The notes below the pieces were generated by a model that saw only the letters and a list, made by a program, of their open reading frames with translations, did not search any database and was not told the DNA's origin. Shown one piece after another: positions 19,811 through 47,263 of a stretch of 64,000 bases of DNA (its first letter is position 1; the number at the start of each line of letters is the position of its first letter). The position numbers were made by a program, and so were the translations under genes. Source of the stretch: Haloarcula salinisoli (GTDB lineage: Archaea; Halobacteriota; Halobacteria; Halobacteriales; Haloarculaceae); assembly GCF_019599405.1 (NCBI RefSeq), contig NZ_RKLQ01000001.1, positions 310,001 to 374,000 of the forward strand, in the 5' to 3' direction.

Positions 19811-20497
19811 TCACTCGCTCTCGAGCTGGTCGACGAGCGACCGCAGCGTCGCCAGGTCGTACTGACCCGGTGCGGTCGCCGCTGCCGGGTCGACCGGCGC
19901 GTAGCCGATACGCGAGCCATAGAGGGGTGCGACGGCCCGGGAGTGGCGGCCGGCCTCGCCCATGCACATCGTCGCGACGGTCTCGCCGCCAGCGGTCAGT
20001 TCGCGTGTCGCACCCAGCATCGCCAGTACGTCGTCGGGCGAGTGTGCAGTCGAGGCCATCTTCCCGACGTCGCCGTAGTCGCAGGCCCGTTCGAGGCGGT
20101 CGACGATGGCGTCCCGGTCCGGTGTCGCCTCGAAGTCGTGGGTCGAGACGACCACCGACGCGCCGTGGTCGCGTGCGTGGTCGGCGACACGGTCCGCGTC
20201 GTGGTCGCCCTCGCCGGAAAGGGCGGCGAGTTCGAGGTCCACGGCGGTGACGGCATCGAACTCGACGGCGCGTTCGAGCAGGTCGAGTCGCTCGGCGGTG
20301 TCGTCGGCCTCGCCGCCCTCCCAGCCGACGCGGTTGGTCACGAGCACCGGCAGGTCGCCGTCGTAGCCGGCCAGCTGGTCGAGCGGGTCGGCGGCGAAGT
20401 CCATTCGCAACTCGATACCGTCGGCGTCGGCCCGCGCGTGGGGCTCCATCGCGAGGTCGGCACCGGCCGCGAGCAGCCGGAACGAACTGAAATCCAT
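19811..20497 (-). CDS. aroD: 3-dehydroquinate dehydratase, type I
   Basis: The 228-residue TIM barrel converts 3-dehydroquinate to 3-dehydroshikimate through a Schiff base. The expected residues are present: ELRMD (29-33), His120 in STHDF and the Schiff-base Lys146 in GKMAST. MGEAGRHSR near 178-186 binds the substrate carboxylate. It continues the pathway begun by ADH synthase and DHQ synthase II at 12-14 kb, though it is separately transcribed. Confidence 0.95.
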   Translation of the reverse strand: MDFSSFRLLAAGADLAMEPHARADADGIELRMDFAADPLDQLAGYDGDLPVLVTNRVGWEGGEADDTAERLDLLERAVEFDAVTAVDLELAALSGEGDHDADRVADHARDHGASVVVSTHDFEATPDRDAIVDRLERACDYGDVGKMASTAHSPDDVLAMLGATRELTAGGETVATMCMGEAGRHSRAVAPLYGSRIGYAPVDPAAATAPGQYDLATLRSLVDQLESE

Positions 20498-20749
20498 ACC
20501 CCGTGTTCGCGGAAACGGGGCAAAGTACCGTCGGTGTCTCCCGGCTCGTCCGTCACTCGCTTACGTACCACTCCGTCCCCCGCTGGGGTCGGATGCGGCC
20601 GTTCACCGTCCCTATCGATACCGTAAGGTCGACCGGACCAGGGAACGGTCTGTCGGGTTTATCTACGGCGGTTTGGCAACGTCTGCCATGAACCAGAGCC
20701 ACGCGTGTCGCGACCTGAATGGCGTGCGGTCCCGCCGGAGGGCCGACCG

Positions 20750-23700
20750 ATGACACAAACCCGGACTATCGTACTCGTCGCCCTGCTGGTCGTGAGCGTC
20801 GTCGCGGTGTCGGCCACCCTGCTCGGAGGCGACGGTCCCCAGCAGGTCGGCGGAGAGAACCAGGCGGGTGACTCGGTCGACTACAGCGCCGTGAGCGACC
20901 AGCTGGACACAGCCGCGTCGGTCGACGCGACCCAGAGTGACCAGCCAGACAATCTCTCCGCGGACGAGCGGACTGCCGCGACACAGGGCGCACAGGCCGG
21001 TATCAACCTGACCCAGCGCCAGGGCGTCACTGTCACGCAGGAACAGCGGCAGGCGGCCATCGACGCCGCGCGCCTCGCTGCGAGTCAGCAGCAAAACGCC
21101 TCGGTCGAGCAGATACAGGCCGCCGCGACGGGGGCGAGCCACGGGGCATTGCTCCAGAGCCAGTCGGCGAACGTCACGCAGCTCCAGACAGCCATCTACG
21201 GGAGCACCGCCGGCTCGCTCACACAGACCCAGTCGGCGAACGTCACACAGGTCCAGGCGGCGGCCTACGGCGCGGCCCACGGCTCGGTCGCCCAATCCCA
21301 GCGGGTCAACGTGACACAGATACAGCGCGCTGCAATCGGGTCGGCCGCGGGCGCCGCTGGGGCCCAGTCACAGACCGTCACCGTCTCACAGGTCCAGGAA
21401 GCCGCTCAGGGGGCCGCCTACGGCTCGCTCACGGGGAACCAGTCTGTCTCTGTCACGCAGATACAGGCAGCGGCCTTTGGCGCGGCCGGTGGCGGTGCTA
21501 CGGGTGCCGGTGACCAGGACCTGAAGAAGGTCCAGGAGGCGTCGCTGGGCGCCGCCTCGGGCGCGCTCGTCCAGAGTCAGTCCGTCTCTGTCACCCAGAT
21601 ACAGGCCGCTGCTCGCGGCGCCTGCCGCGGTGCGCTCACGGCCGGCCAGGAAGCGTCGGTCTCCCAGATTCAGGCCGCGGCCGCTGGCGCGAGCCAGGGG
21701 ACGGTCATCCAGATACAGCAGGTACAGGTCCTGCAGGTACAGACTGTCGCACAGAGCGCCGCGAGCGGTTCCATCTCGCAGTTCCAGCGCGCAAGCGTCA
21801 CGCAGATACAGTCGGCCGCCAAGGGCGCCGGTGAGGGTGGGCTCTCGCTCGTACAGCGCCAGCAGGTCACGGTCGAGCAGCTGCAGGTCCAGACCGAACG
21901 CGCGGCCTCTGACGCCGCCGGCACGGCCGCGGAGATAAATATCGACAACGAGCAGACAATCGAGGTGTACGCCACGGGTGCCGTCGAATCGGACCGGCCC
22001 GACGACGGTGACGAGGACGGCCTCCGGAGCCTGTTCGCCTCGGCCGACGACGACCGTATCTTCCTCGCGAATCCCAACGACGTGGCCGTAACGGTGACCG
22101 TGACGGGCGGCGAGAACCCACAGACGGTGACGCTCGCCGCCGGCGAGTCGACCACGGTCGACCTCGACCCCGGCACGTACACGCTGACGGCCGAGAACAG
22201 CGAGGGTGACACCGTCCAGATTGCCGGCCGCGACGAACTCACGCTCTCGGTCGGCGCGGCGCTCCAGAGCCTGACCGCGACCGTCGACAATCGGACGCTG
22301 ACGGTCGGGAACCCGAACGACGACCGCGTGCGGGTCACCGCCAGCGCCGACGGCGAGGCCGTCGCCCGGTTCGAGGTCCCGCGCAACTTCGAGGCGAGCC
22401 AGCGGCTAGACCCCGGTACCTACACGCTGACCGCCGAGACGACCGACGGGCGGTCGGTCCCAATCGACGGCTCCGACCAGGCGACTGTCACGGTCGCCGG
22501 GCCGCCGACGGAGACGGTGACTGAAACGCCGACGGAGACACCGACCGAGGCAGTCACCGAGACGCCGACGGAGACACCGACGGAGACACCGACCGAGGCA
22601 GTCACCGAGACGCCGACGGAGACACCGACGGAGACACCGACGGAGACGGTGACTGAAACGCCGACGGAGACACCGACGGAGACACCGACCGAGACAGTCA
22701 CCGAGACGCCGAACGAGACTCCAAACGCTGCCAGCCCGGTTATCGACTCGTGTCGGAACATCTCCGAGCCCGGCAGCTACGAACTCGCCGGTGACATCCA
22801 GGCCGATGGGACGGCGTCCTGTCTTGTGGTCACCGCCAGTGACGTGACCATCGACGGCAACGGATACTCGGTCGACGGGTCGGCCGGGTCGGCCGATTCG
22901 GCGACGGGCATCGCGGTGCCCTCGGAATCGAGAGCCGAGAACGTCACCGTCCGCAACGTCGAAGTCCGCGGCTGGGACATCGGCATCAGTACGCTCCCGG
23001 CGTTCGACGCCGGGGTGGGACTCACGGTCGAAGACACCGTCGTCGCCGACAACGGCCAGGGGCTTCGGTTCACCGAAGCGGACGAAACCAGCCTGTCGAA
23101 TCTGACTATCGAGGCAAACGACGAGGGCGTGTTCGCGCTCGAAGGCGCGACAGAACTGCGGGACTCCGTGGTCCGAGACAACGCGGGCAACGGCGTCAGC
23201 GCCTCGCAGGCCAACGACCTGGTCATGACGAACGTCGAGGTGACCGACAACGGTGGCACGGGGGTCCTCGTCTCGAACGAGGGACAGACCGGCCGACTGG
23301 CGAACGTCGTCGTCTCGGACAACGCCGGTCCCGGTGTCGCCATCGGGAGCGACACGAGCACGACCATCGTCGACTCCCGTATCGAGAACAACGCCGTCGG
23401 CATCAACACCACGCCGGATTCGGGGCCCGCCGCGGACCTCACCATCGACGCCACGGTTGTGCAGGGCAACAACGGCCCAGAGATCGACGTGCCGGGCCAG
23501 TCAATCGACGCGACCGGCCTGCGGCTCGCCGAGACGACGACGGTCGGTATCGACGCCCAGGGTGTCACGCTGGACGCCGTCGAGCAGGGCGGGCTGCCGC
23601 CGGTCGACAACGGGACACTCGCCGGTCCCGGCCTGAACGCCTCGACCCTCGAGGGGTCCGTTCAGGCGACCATCGGCACCGACACAGCGGCTAACGCGAC

Positions 23701-24253
23701 GCTGTGGCGCTACGACGGCAGCGCGTGGGCGCCGGTCGCGGGGTCGACTGCCACCGACGGCGGCGTCACGGCCCAGCTCACCGAAGCCGGGCTCTACGCG
23801 CCGGTGGTCCCAGAGGTCCAGACTCCGACCCCGACGGCAACGCCGAACGAAACTGAGACGCCGACACCAACGGAAACCGAGACGCCGACGGAAACTGAAA
23901 CCGAGACGCCGACACCGACGGAGACCGAGACGCCGACATCGACGGAGACTGAGACGCCGACACCGACGGAGACCGAGACGCCGACCCCAACGGAGACCGA
24001 GACTGAAACACCAGAACCAACCCCGGAGCCGACGCCTGAACCAACTCCGGAGCCGACCCCAGAGCCGACGCCCGAGCCAACGCCTGAACCAACTCCGGAG
24101 CCGACCCCAGAGCCGACGCCCGAGCCAACGCCTGAACCAACTCCGGAGCCGACCCCAGAGCCAACCCCGGAACCAGAGCCGGAGCCGACCCCGGAGCCCG
24201 AACCGGACGACGAAACCACGCCTCTGGAGACGCTTTCACGACTCCTGCCGTAG
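20750..24253 (+). CDS. Large secreted repeat/beta-helix surface protein with Thr-Pro and Glu-Pro stalks
   Basis: The 1167-residue protein starts with a hydrophobic signal or anchor (residues 6-25). Residues 93-391 hold about a dozen copies of a 23-residue repeat of the form xxVTQIQxAAxGAAxGxLxQxQ. Two similar beta domains follow (about 430-580), each with NPND and [11 protein letters not shown]. Then come a TPTE-rich stalk (about 587-658), a right-handed parallel beta-helix of NosD/pectate-lyase type (about 665-970), a short [11 protein letters not shown] domain, and a long TETP then EPTP stalk. There is no PGF-CTERM sorting signal at the end (LETLSRLLP), so attachment must be by the N-terminal segment or other contacts. 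Many NxS/T sequons suggest N-glycosylation. An adhesin or cell-surface fibre role is inferred. Confidence 0.85.
21026..21922 (+). repeat. Coding array of 23-residue (69-nt) Q/A-rich repeats
   Basis: About twelve tandem units encode a pattern with paired Gln at two points, Val-Thr after a small residue and a Gly at a fixed place, for example [17 protein letters not shown]. Most units are exactly 23 residues; some are 21-25. The DNA of the units has diverged, so the array is old or under protein-level selection rather than recently amplified. One unit starts [13 protein letters not shown] and has lost the VTQ core. Confidence 0.85.
22510..22722 (+). repeat. TPTE-encoding tandem repeat (first stalk)
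   Basis: Repeats of CCGACGGAGACA encode TPTE/TETP units interrupted by AVTE and TVTE. Near-identical copies suggest recent slippage. It encodes a probably O-glycosylated extended linker between the beta domains and the beta-helix. Confidence 0.85.
23821..24216 (+). repeat. TETP and EPTP-encoding tandem repeats (second stalk)
   Basis: The first half encodes TPTETE units and the second half about twenty EPTP units with nearly identical 12-nt and 60-nt periodicity. Length is likely to vary between strains. It forms the acidic C-terminal stalk of the surface protein. Confidence 0.85.
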
Positions 24254-27461: not shown

Positions 27462-27971
27462 ATGCACGTCGCCATCGGGAGCGAGAATCCAGTGAAAGTG
27501 AACGCGGTCGAGCGCGTCGTCCCCGACGCCGAATCCGTCGCTGTCGCGGTCGAATCGGGTGTCCCCGAACAGCCCTGGGGCCGCGAGGAGACGGTCCGTG
27601 GCGCGGGCAACCGCGCGGACGCTGCGCTGGCGGCGACCGACGCCGACTACGGCGTCGGTATCGAGGGCGGCGTCGCCGAGCGCGCGGTCCCCGGCGGCGT
27701 GTGGCTCGTGATGTGGGCCGCCGTCACCGACGGTGAACGGACACAGTACGGCGCCGGCCCGTCGATTCTGCTCCCCGACCCTGTCGCCCAGCGGCTCCGT
27801 GACGGCGAGGAGCTGGGTCCCGCCCTCGACGACGAGCTGGGCCGGGAAGAACTCGGCAGACAGGAGGGTGCTATCGGCGTCTACACTGCCGGTCGGGTCG
27901 GCCGGACGGACGCGCTCGTCGATGCCGTGGCTGGTGCGTTCGGGCCGTTTCTGCGTGAGAGCGGTGACTAG
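27462..27971 (+). CDS. Inosine/xanthosine triphosphatase (YjjX/DUF84 family)
   Basis: The 169-residue protein begins HVAIGSENPVKVNAVE, the phosphate-binding opening of YjjX-type NTPases, which remove ITP and XTP from the nucleotide pool. EGGV near residue 67 and RVGRTDALVDAV near the end are family features. ATG 27462 is preferred to ATG 27435 because the putative TATA box sits too close to the latter. The structured element at 28.0 kb lies directly downstream on the same strand. Confidence 0.85.
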   Translation: MHVAIGSENPVKVNAVERVVPDAESVAVAVESGVPEQPWGREETVRGAGNRADAALAATDADYGVGIEGGVAERAVPGGVWLVMWAAVTDGERTQYGAGPSILLPDPVAQRLRDGEELGPALDDELGREELGRQEGAIGVYTAGRVGRTDALVDAVAGAFGPFLRESGD

Positions 27972-28012: not shown

Positions 28013-28166
28013 GAGAGTCAGAAGGTCCCACCCGTCGCCGGCCGGTCAATCAGTGCGGGATGGGACTGAAAGGGGCGAGTGGCTCCGGGAAGGCGGGCGA
28101 CGCAAGCACCTGCTGGCGCGCAGCGAGCCCCCCGACCGGAGCCACTCGGGGCTTTCTGGCTGTTCA
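28013..28166 (+). ncRNA. Structured intergenic element, copy A (candidate RNA or palindromic repeat)
   Basis: Shared blocks with the copy at 45.8-46.0 kb occur in the same order: GAGAGTCAGAAGG, a hairpin, CTGAAAGGGGCG (28065-28077), GGCTCCGGGAAGGCGG, GACGCAAGCAC, AGCCCCCCGACCGGAGCCA and GGGGCTTTCTGGCTGTT. Helix P2 pairs GTCCCA (28025-28030) with TGGGAC (28061-28066). P3 is a perfect 13-bp stem, 28076-28088 with 28136-28148. P1 pairs 28018-28029 with 28148-28159 using G-U wobbles. P1 and P2 share GTCCC, so they compete. It lies in the 3' region of the YjjX-type gene, between convergent genes. Transcription and function are not shown. Confidence 0.65.
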
Positions 28167-28250
28167 GAGACGAACTGCATTCACGATTAACAACTAGACC
28201 GACTCTATTCCTCGCTGCTCACGGGTCGCGTTGCTCCCCGTTCGCGTTCC

Positions 28251-45683: not shown

Positions 45684-45763
45684 ACCGGAGGTTGCGGTCG
45701 TGTGGGTAAAAGGTGCGAGGTCTGGGAGGTGGTGATTCTTACAGGGTGCTATCTACATCTAAC

Positions 45764-46028
45764 AGCCAGAAAGCCCCGGCTGTCATCGGACGCGAAGCGT
45801 CCGATTACCCGCGAGAGCTATGCTCTCGCCCTGGCTCCAGTCGGGGGCTTCGCTGTGCGCTTCCCTCACTACGTTCGGTCCAGTGCTTGCGTCAGCCGCC
45901 TTCCCGGAGCCAGCCACCGGGAGACCGGCGGTCTCCCGAGCTCGCGGGCGGCACAGCCGCCCGCGAACGCCCCTTTCAGCCCCACCCGTAGCCGGTTGAT
46001 CAGCTGGCATAGGTGGGGCTTTCTGGCT
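45764..46028 (-). ncRNA. Structured intergenic element, copy B (candidate RNA or palindromic repeat)
   Basis: Read on the minus strand it starts AGCCAGAAAGCCCC (46028-46015) and ends GGGGCTTTCTGGCT (45777-45764), a perfect 14-bp terminal pairing (P1). P2 pairs AGCCCCACC (46020-46012) with GGTGGGGCT (45986-45978). CTGAAAGGGGCG follows (45979-45968). P3 pairs GGAGCCAG/CTGGCTCC (45906-45913 with 45831-45838 on the plus strand). Four extra perfect hairpins absent from copy A are inserted: 45942-45966 (10 bp), 45918-45938 (9 bp), 45811-45829 (8 bp) and 45785-45805 (9 bp). It is directly downstream of the DHH gene, on the same strand. Confidence 0.65.
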
Positions 46029-46063: not shown

Positions 46064-47263
46064 CTAGCGCTCGCCGGCCATGGCCTCGAACAGCCGCTCC
46101 TGGAGTTCCGCGCGTGTGACGCCCTCGCTGGGACCGAGTCCGTCGAGATAGTCGACGGATATCTTCCCGCCGCCCATGCGGGCGTGGCCGCCGCCCTCGG
46201 CCATCGGGATGTCGTCGACGACGGCCTCGATGGCGCGGCCGATGTGGACCCGGTCGTCCCGGGAGCGGCCGGCGATGCGGATAGTCCCCTCTTTCTCGCC
46301 GACGACGACGACGGCCGAGACGCCCTCCAGGGTCTCCAGTTCGTCGGCCGCCTGGGGAATCGCGTCCGTGTTCGACACCTCGCCGACGTCGCTGAAGCCG
46401 TAGGGAGCCCTGACCTCGCGGTCCCTGATGGCCCGCGATTTCACGTCCAGGACTTCCGCGTCGACCTGCGGGTTGGCGATGCGGTTCAACAGGTCGGTGT
46501 CGACGCCCTGGTAGAGGTACGCCGCCGCGGCGAAGTCGGCCGACGAGCAGCCGTTGGTCAGCGACCGCGTGTCCGACTGGATGCCGTAGATGAGTCCCGT
46601 CGCGACGTGGCTGGGCATCGCGTCCTCGGGGACGTCGGCCGTGTCGACGCCGCCGTCGGTCAGTGCGATGTCGACCTCGAAGAAGTCCCACTCCAGGTCC
46701 TCGAAGTACTCGGCGAAGATAGTCGCACACGCGCCCATATCGGTTCGGACGTCGGTGAACTCGGTGCCGGTCCCGCCGCCGGGGTGGTGGTCGATGACGG
46801 CGATGGGTTCTATCTTCTCGGCGCCGGCGAAGCCGCGGGGCTCGTTGTGGTCGACGAGCACGACCGCCTCCGTCTCGATGTCACCGACCGACTCGACGCG
46901 GTCGAAATCCAGGTCCAGCACTGTCTCGAAGGCTCTGTTTTCCGGCCGACGGATCTCGCCGGAGTAGCACAGCTTCGTGTCGGTCCCCGCGGCGGTCGCG
47001 AGCTGGTCGACGGCCAGCGCCGACGACATCGCGTCCGGGTCGGGGTTGGGATGCATCAGCACCGTCACGGCGTCGTACTCGGTCAGCAGCGACTGGAGCC
47101 GGGTGACTGGTGGCCGCGTCAGATACCGATAGAGCGCGAAGCCGCCGCCAAACAGCACGATAAGGCCGACGACGACACCGGCTACCAGCACCGGATTCTC
47201 GCTCACGTAGCCCGGGAGCCCCTCGGCCAGACTGACGAGGTTCCCCTGGGCCAGCGGATTCAT
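46064..47263 (-). CDS. Membrane-anchored DHH/DHHA1 phosphoesterase
   Basis: The 399-residue protein has one N-terminal membrane helix (about 24-45). A DHH domain follows, with HPNPDPDAM (71-79), VDHNE (138-142) and DHHPGG (158-163), and then a DHHA1 domain with GGGHARMGGGKI near 366-377. Relatives are nanoRNases (NrnA), RecJ-like enzymes and cyclic dinucleotide phosphodiesterases. Membrane anchoring favours a signalling-nucleotide or nanoRNA role at the membrane, which is inference. Copy B of the structured element follows its stop. Confidence 0.88.
   Translation of the reverse strand: MNPLAQGNLVSLAEGLPGYVSENPVLVAGVVVGLIVLFGGGFALYRYLTRPPVTRLQSLLTEYDAVTVLMHPNPDPDAMSSALAVDQLATAAGTDTKLCYSGEIRRPENRAFETVLDLDFDRVESVGDIETEAVVLVDHNEPRGFAGAEKIEPIAVIDHHPGGGTGTEFTDVRTDMGACATIFAEYFEDLEWDFFEVDIALTDGGVDTADVPEDAMPSHVATGLIYGIQSDTRSLTNGCSSADFAAAAYLYQGVDTDLLNRIANPQVDAEVLDVKSRAIRDREVRAPYGFSDVGEVSNTDAIPQAADELETLEGVSAVVVVGEKEGTIRIAGRSRDDRVHIGRAIEAVVDDIPMAEGGGHARMGGGKISVDYLDGLGPSEGVTRAELQERLFEAMAGER

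Follow-up and report, generated by a model that had tools for sequence, protein, structure and literature searches.

The window analysed here, a 64,000-nucleotide stretch of the Haloarcula salinisoli genome, contains two copies, A (28016-28164, + strand) and B (46028-45761, − strand), of a palindromic repeat family that is unnamed, is present in most haloarchaea, often in tens of copies, and lies between genes. Both are atypical one-arm short forms, without the left arm, of an inverted pair of ~265 bp. We consider it somewhat probable that both copies are degraded representatives of a family of dispersed intergenic palindromes, class-wide in haloarchaea, that has no transposase of its own and works like REPINs. 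The element would then spread and reshuffle as folded single-stranded DNA, a putative structure-specific protein would recognise it in trans, and A, B and other copies with a single arm would have arisen by deletion. A literature search, in which few subscription journals were covered, returned no description of these sequences in haloarchaea.

Architecture of the element and of copies A and B

The terminal 16-mer (GGGGCTTTCTGGCTGTT) has 174 matches in this genome at two or fewer mismatches, compared with 1 for a reversed control, and dozens of matches were obtained both with a 16-mer from the arm and with a 158-nt half element. From 41 compared copies, the usual form has a central palindrome flanked by two hairpin arms that point outward and, beyond these, terminal repeats (AACAGCCAGAAAGCCCC, hairpin arm, GCCCCTTTCAGTCCCACCC, ~22 nt, GGGTGGGACTGAAAGGGGC, second arm, GGGGCTTTCTGGCTGTT; ~265 bp), and the full element drawn as one strand is a four-way junction. 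Read from the centre to the end, both arms have the same motif, GAAGGCGGGCGACGYAAGCAC ... GCGCAGCGAGCCCCCCGA or variants of it; thus, a single oriented unit, a hairpin of ~105 nt (...GGGACTGAAAGGGGC-arm-GGGGCTTTC...), is present twice in the element, in inverted arrangement. A covariance model of the arm found 100 arms in this genome, belonging to 66 elements, of which 34 are inverted pairs and the other 32 have a single arm that can be recognised; every two-arm element found had the '-+' order, and 55 distinct stems were counted among 62 arms. A and B are thus members of a dispersed family and not a two-copy RNA.

Within the window, A (28067-28156 +, 96.8 bits, E 2.6e-19) and B (45913-45831 −, 65.5 bits, E 2e-12) were the only strong matches to the covariance model. 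Weak matches at 20215 and 22561 are probably due to chance; they lie near or in a large open reading frame (20705-24253) with C-terminal repeats of TETPTPT type, which is surface-protein-like. The blocks first noticed in A (+) and B (−) do occur in the same order and where they had been placed, and both blocks and helices go far beyond chance. Copy A begins with a remnant of the left terminal repeat joined to the centre (AGTCAGAAGGTCCC, 28016..28029, +; compared with full form L001/L011), followed by the central palindrome (GTCCCACCC...GATGGGACTGAAAGGGGC, 28025..28076, +), an outward-pointing arm (28077..28147, +) with a variable basal stem of 12 bp, tandem G.A and an CGACGCAAGCAC/GCGCAGCGAG core, and the right terminal repeat GGGGCTTTCTGGCTGTT (28148..28164, +). 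In copy B, the left terminal repeat (AGCCAGAAAGCCCC, 46015..46028, −) is joined to the centre at AGCCCC without a left arm; the central palindrome (GCCCCACC...GGGTGGGGCTGAAAGGGGC, 45969..46019, −) and the right terminal repeat GGGGCTTTCTGGCTGTT (45761..45777, −) enclose an outward-pointing arm (45831..45916, −) into whose stem a two-hairpin cassette is inserted on both the 5' side (45917..45968, −) and the 3' side (45778..45830, −).

Folded as RNA, copy A reaches −88.1 kcal/mol (z −4.3) and copy B −166.9 kcal/mol (z −9.0), values that no dinucleotide shuffle equalled. The helices described from the two copies fared unequally once the family was available for comparison. P1 does contain G-U pairs in A (three, where A-G-T-C-A-G-A-A-G-G-T-C-C-C pairs with GGGGCTTTCTGGCT) and is perfect in B. 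The change in P2, from GTCCCA/TGGGAC to GCCCCA/TGGGGC, is real but is only one variant of an AGTCCC/AGCCCC alternation found family-wide, and the difference in P3, although present, comes mainly from the cassettes that break the stem of B on both sides.

The cassette on the 5' side of the arm stem of copy B recurs in elements at C2:833036, C1:595098 and C1:582673, and two-hairpin cassettes of ~50-60 bp recur nested in arms and centres (45917-45968 and 45778-45830 in the window; C1:279057, C1:286970 and C1:569327 in the genome). Two copies of a cassette in element centres are bordered by 8-bp direct repeats (GGGACTGA; TCAGTCCC), and the sequences suggest that the nested cassettes may be a smaller mobile repeat with target duplication.

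Copies A and B apparently each lost one arm by deletion between short direct repeats. Copy B reads CCAGAAAGCCCCACC, as expected from a deletion running from AGCCCC in the left terminal repeat to AGCCCC in the centre, while copy A reads TCAGAAGGTCCCACC, which would follow from the same kind of deletion at AGTCCC and a single substitution. Support for this route comes from Haloarcula rara SHR3, the closest relative among those searched, in which site B holds the full element, though with other arms, and site A retains just the opposite arm.

Pairing constraint and strand-specific folding

Among 100 elements from many genera, the seven outer pairs of the terminal helix (outside GAAAG) are Watson-Crick in 87% of cases against 65% in shuffled controls, and the 11-pair basal stems of the two arms in 92% and 89%, compared with 48% after shuffling; distinct 5' sequences number 78 and 84, respectively. 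The claim that structure is kept by compensatory change was borne out in 36 diverse arms, in which 21 of 27 predicted pairs have changes on both sides, paired cells amount to 94.2% (69.3% when shuffled) and the covariation score is 0.614, compared with 0.181 for shuffled and 0.06-0.10 for slid controls. The arms are phylogenetically non-independent and the shuffle test is inflated by their relatedness; the slid controls, together with the many distinct stems, nevertheless argue that chance or shared descent is inadequate to explain the pairing. The sequence-only reading would have been refuted by a total of two copies and an absence of covariation; many copies and strong covariation were found instead.

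The strand on which pairing is constrained can be read from the exceptions. On the outward strand, the 12 basal pairs of 187 arms include 65 G·T and 17 A·C, an imbalance confined to one strand that agrees with the earlier view of G-U pairs as informative; the counts are 28 and 6 when restricted to unique stems with at most two departures, and 13 and 5 in this genome alone (one-sided p 0.048). At arm positions 13-14, G·A occurs in 131 of 187 arms and A·G in 117 of 187. Because the G·T excess over A·C and the G·A steps are found on the outward strand only, it is most likely one strand, taken from the centre outward, that folds. A purely double-stranded role, or correction of palindromes during replication, would neither favour G·T over A·C nor keep G·A on one strand; strand-biased mutation could be the source of some of the G·T excess but cannot give the G·A steps. 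We caution that the excess is compatible with RNA as well as with single-stranded DNA. Folding energies of the whole element showed no strand asymmetry, since the element is a dyad, and for single arms the outward strand folds better in 112 of 187 cases as RNA and in 92 of 187 as DNA, a difference so small that the strand argument is carried by the wobble counts and not by the energies. A kink-turn was considered for the G·A step and rejected, as the step is present but the three-nucleotide bulge is absent by eye.

The same data bear on whether the family consists of ordinary MITEs, moved by a DDE transposase acting on the terminal repeats, with arm pairing that is incidental or a product of palindrome correction during replication. 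The resemblance is considerable: the elements are short, non-coding, non-autonomous, intergenic and high in copy number, they have terminal inverted repeats, and their distribution is patchy, with sites gained or lost. We nonetheless consider this improbable because terminal recognition predicts fixed ends and a freer interior, whereas the reverse is found. Which letters stand at the termini depends on the genus (CAGCCA in Haloarcula, ACCTC in Halonotius, ACCAC in Natrialbaceae), remaining complementary always, while the inner GAAAGCCCC and the centre are constant; the stems are constrained to pair, and palindrome correction would have removed the G·A mismatches and equalised G·T and A·C. In this genome, no two terminal repeats stood out as lying a gene's length apart with a transposase between them, and no parent insertion sequence was found.

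Distribution, turnover and genomic context

The arm model matches 245 of the 292 Halobacteria genomes sampled, in 65 of 77 genera; most best matches have E-values below 1e-10, on a short calibration without decoy genomes, and arm counts per genome are lower bounds, many genomes having at least 13 scored candidates. The exact central palindrome is found in only 23 of the 293 genomes sampled from the order and in 118 GTDB genome stretches, and all 80 of the 80 among the matches listed are haloarchaeal, so that the hunch of related GCCCCTTTCAG elements in other haloarchaea proved correct. Phage records contain no match to the arm pattern or the centre, and IMG/VR contains one to the arm pattern and none to the centre; a virus origin was rejected on this near absence. 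The only contig of the viral collection with the arm pattern, IMGVR_UViG_3300009514_000014 (83,955 bp), could be a provirus or plasmid.

Occupancy of individual sites differs even between close relatives. The element at site B is absent in 27 of the 29 other congeners recovered, and H. rara lacks the elements at 496163 and at 582673, where 9 bp separate the convergent stop codons instead of about 450. At sites that the two species have in common, 9-17 of 24 stem letters match, and the best H. rara match is always at another locus, with up to 24 of 24 letters, a pattern that argues for exchange between copies or repeated insertion and not for simple divergence. No transposition event or intermediate was seen, which we count against a mobile reading. 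The ends of the element are approximate, as even the nearest relatives (~92% identical) have diverged too far between genes for boundaries or a target duplication to be defined.

The flanks provide one indication of where the ends may lie. A CTAG ~45 nt outside copy A (27968..27971) is the stop codon of the upstream gene and has a partner on the other side of the copy (28194-28197), and a CTAG ~36 nt outside copy B (46064..46067) overlaps the stop codon of the gene upstream. At this site, congeners without the element have other stop codons, which the element replaces with one in CTAG. The density of CTAG 35-65 nt outside element ends is 7.84 per kb, compared with 1.09 in other spacers and 0.46 overall, and the flanks in other genera are likewise enriched (2.72 versus 0.36). 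This enrichment implies that the true ends may be ~50 nt further out, and the CTAG flanks may mark either these ends or the target. Solo terminal repeats (GGGGCTTTCTGGCTGT) were also observed ~45 nt from complete elements, often beside GCTAGC (C1:251745, C1:582670 and the regions of C2:780021 and C3:97968).

Placement is extragenic (1 of 154 called inside a gene, with genes called crudely by a simple codon-usage method) and follows the background of available spacers: of the two-arm elements, 30 are in tandem, 14 in divergent and 6 in convergent spacers, compared with 302, 127 and 85 for all spacers. A terminator or 3'-UTR element was rejected on these counts, as context equals background and divergent spacers are occupied at the expected frequency. 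Single-arm copies in tandem spacers weakly favour the transcribed strand (27 versus 13), and a gene on the same strand does precede both A and B, as the sequence-only reading noted, but the family overall has no such preference.

These observations are central to the main rival interpretation, a family of structured non-coding RNAs in which the outward units are transcribed as tandem-GA hairpins, forming tens of RNA genes or 3'-UTR modules. Strong covariation, a G·U-type asymmetry with conserved sheared-type G·A on one strand, the weak strand bias of single-arm copies and the same-strand gene before both A and B are all what such a family would give, and we treat it as a serious contender, yet unlikely, because placement is independent of gene orientation, presence differs among close relatives, and a transcript of a full element could fold only one of its two units, the other folding on the opposite strand. 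The GC-rich centre, moreover, has no promoter-like sequence by eye. In keeping with the earlier remark that no named RNA with these blocks was known, Rfam release 15 has no match at gathering score in the window, and a permissive search around copy A gave just two matches, to mir-3200 and to a betaproteobacterial sRNA, both scoring far under the threshold. The original description of A and B as an RNA element is thus doubtful at present, given a context that equals background and a presence that differs between close relatives.

Comparison with known repeats and the plasmid locus

REPINs are inverted doublets of REP sequences with high copy number, random extragenic placement, compensatory changes in their hairpins and decayed singlets (PMC3116915). 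The haloarchaeal family resembles REPINs and BIMEs in each of these respects, being an inverted doublet of an oriented palindromic unit at high copy number, with extragenic and orientation-independent placement, compensatory changes and decayed singlets. It differs in that its unit is ~105 nt with internal G·A steps, whereas a REP is 20-40 bp; in that the base of the unit is GAAAGGGGC/GGGGCTTTC, with no GTAG- or CGTC-type tag; and in that it spans most of one archaeal class and no RAYT partner was found. Only IS200-type TnpA has been reported in archaea (PMC6006769). The one Y1_Tnp in this genome is IS200/IS605-like and lies about 1 kb from a TnpB gene, and no RAYT (TnpA-REP) bordered by repeats was found. 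A Y1 transposase was rejected as a necessary mover because four element-carrying congeners (G009, G010, G022 and G026) have none; the searches found no trans factor or transposase partner.

Two repeat types already described from haloarchaea invite comparison. The SMRs of Haloquadratum walsbyi are dispersed repeats of 80-110 bp, >95% identical, that have terminal inverted repeats unrelated to known transposons, target PATEs and have no transposase (PMC3119063). The present family is likewise dispersed, with terminal inverted repeats and without a related transposon or transposase, but by the published description of SMRs it differs in being ~265 bp or more, very diverse and located between genes. 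PATEs are, like our elements, palindromic, non-coding, haloarchaeal and heterogeneous, and the nested cassettes recall the insertion of SMRs into PATEs in PATE-rich haloarchaea (PMC3119063). That the family is a PATE-type remnant of IS200/IS605-type transposons with near-terminal palindromes is nevertheless hardly credible: PATEs by definition have no terminal inverted repeats, none of 16 TnpB 3' ends resembles the element, and the four congeners named above carry elements without a Y1 transposase. An origin from an IS200/IS605 omega-RNA or a PATE was rejected on the ends of the same 16 TnpB loci, where the single apparent match was a neighbouring element. The longer unit, the absence of a REP tag and of a RAYT, and the dissimilarity to SMRs and PATEs together indicate a new variant of dispersed palindromic repeat that falls outside those families.

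If the REPIN-like reading is correct, most haloarchaeal genomes contain an overlooked repeat family that persists without a recognisable transposase, its letters changing fast while its folds are kept; the REPIN idea would extend to archaea with a different partner, much haloarchaeal intergenic sequence would be explained, and the family would provide a ready test set for single-strand selection. Should the arms instead be RNAs, they would form a very large unrecorded RNA family. Whichever reading holds, both Rfam and repeat annotation miss the family.

Plasmids offer the strongest hint of a function or a trans partner, though no more than a hint. When plasmids are matched to the chromosomal element, the top matches are often a single arm upstream of a conserved non-coding block of ~500 nt, downstream of which lies a gene for a protein of 285-299 aa with a C-terminal OB fold and a weak match to replication factor A (RPA). 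The distance from arm to block stays constant on plasmids across many haloarchaeal families. Matches to the block occur in 170 plasmid records, likewise from many families, and in 42 of these they cover at least 80% of a 681-nt query in which the arm is included. A clear arm was detected by the model in 19 of 20 plasmid loci examined, with the outward strand always directed away from the gene, and at least 10 of the 20 plasmid records among the matches listed for the chromosomal query are at this RPA-like locus. The arm on plasmids is a case of synteny, not of mobility. This syntenic copy next to an RPA-like gene and the deeply conserved core hint that the family does more than parasitise and may serve the host or the plasmid, which counts against reading the family as a mobile palindrome.

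Taken furthest, this locus would make the family primarily a host or plasmid signal, such as a single-stranded-DNA initiation or loading site bound by the OB-fold protein, with the chromosomal copies arising by secondary spread. The constant spacing upstream of block and gene on plasmids of so many families, and the share of listed plasmid matches at that locus, are in its favour; we regard it as very improbable all the same, because some plasmids (H64-H66) carry block and gene without an arm and, in the window, no such gene lies near the chromosomal copies. A narrower version of the REPIN-like reading, in which a class-wide, RAYT-free system of head-to-head units folds as single-stranded DNA (or RNA) hairpins and has the OB-fold RPA-like protein as its trans partner, is likewise improbable.

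The ~500-nt block may itself be a plasmid origin, a transfer-related site or a large RNA. It has no Rfam match, and its covariation term is about zero in an alignment too conserved to tell. The block is GC-rich and often 80-92% identical across families (L310:2490-3170; Haloferax mediterranei pHME132, L325).
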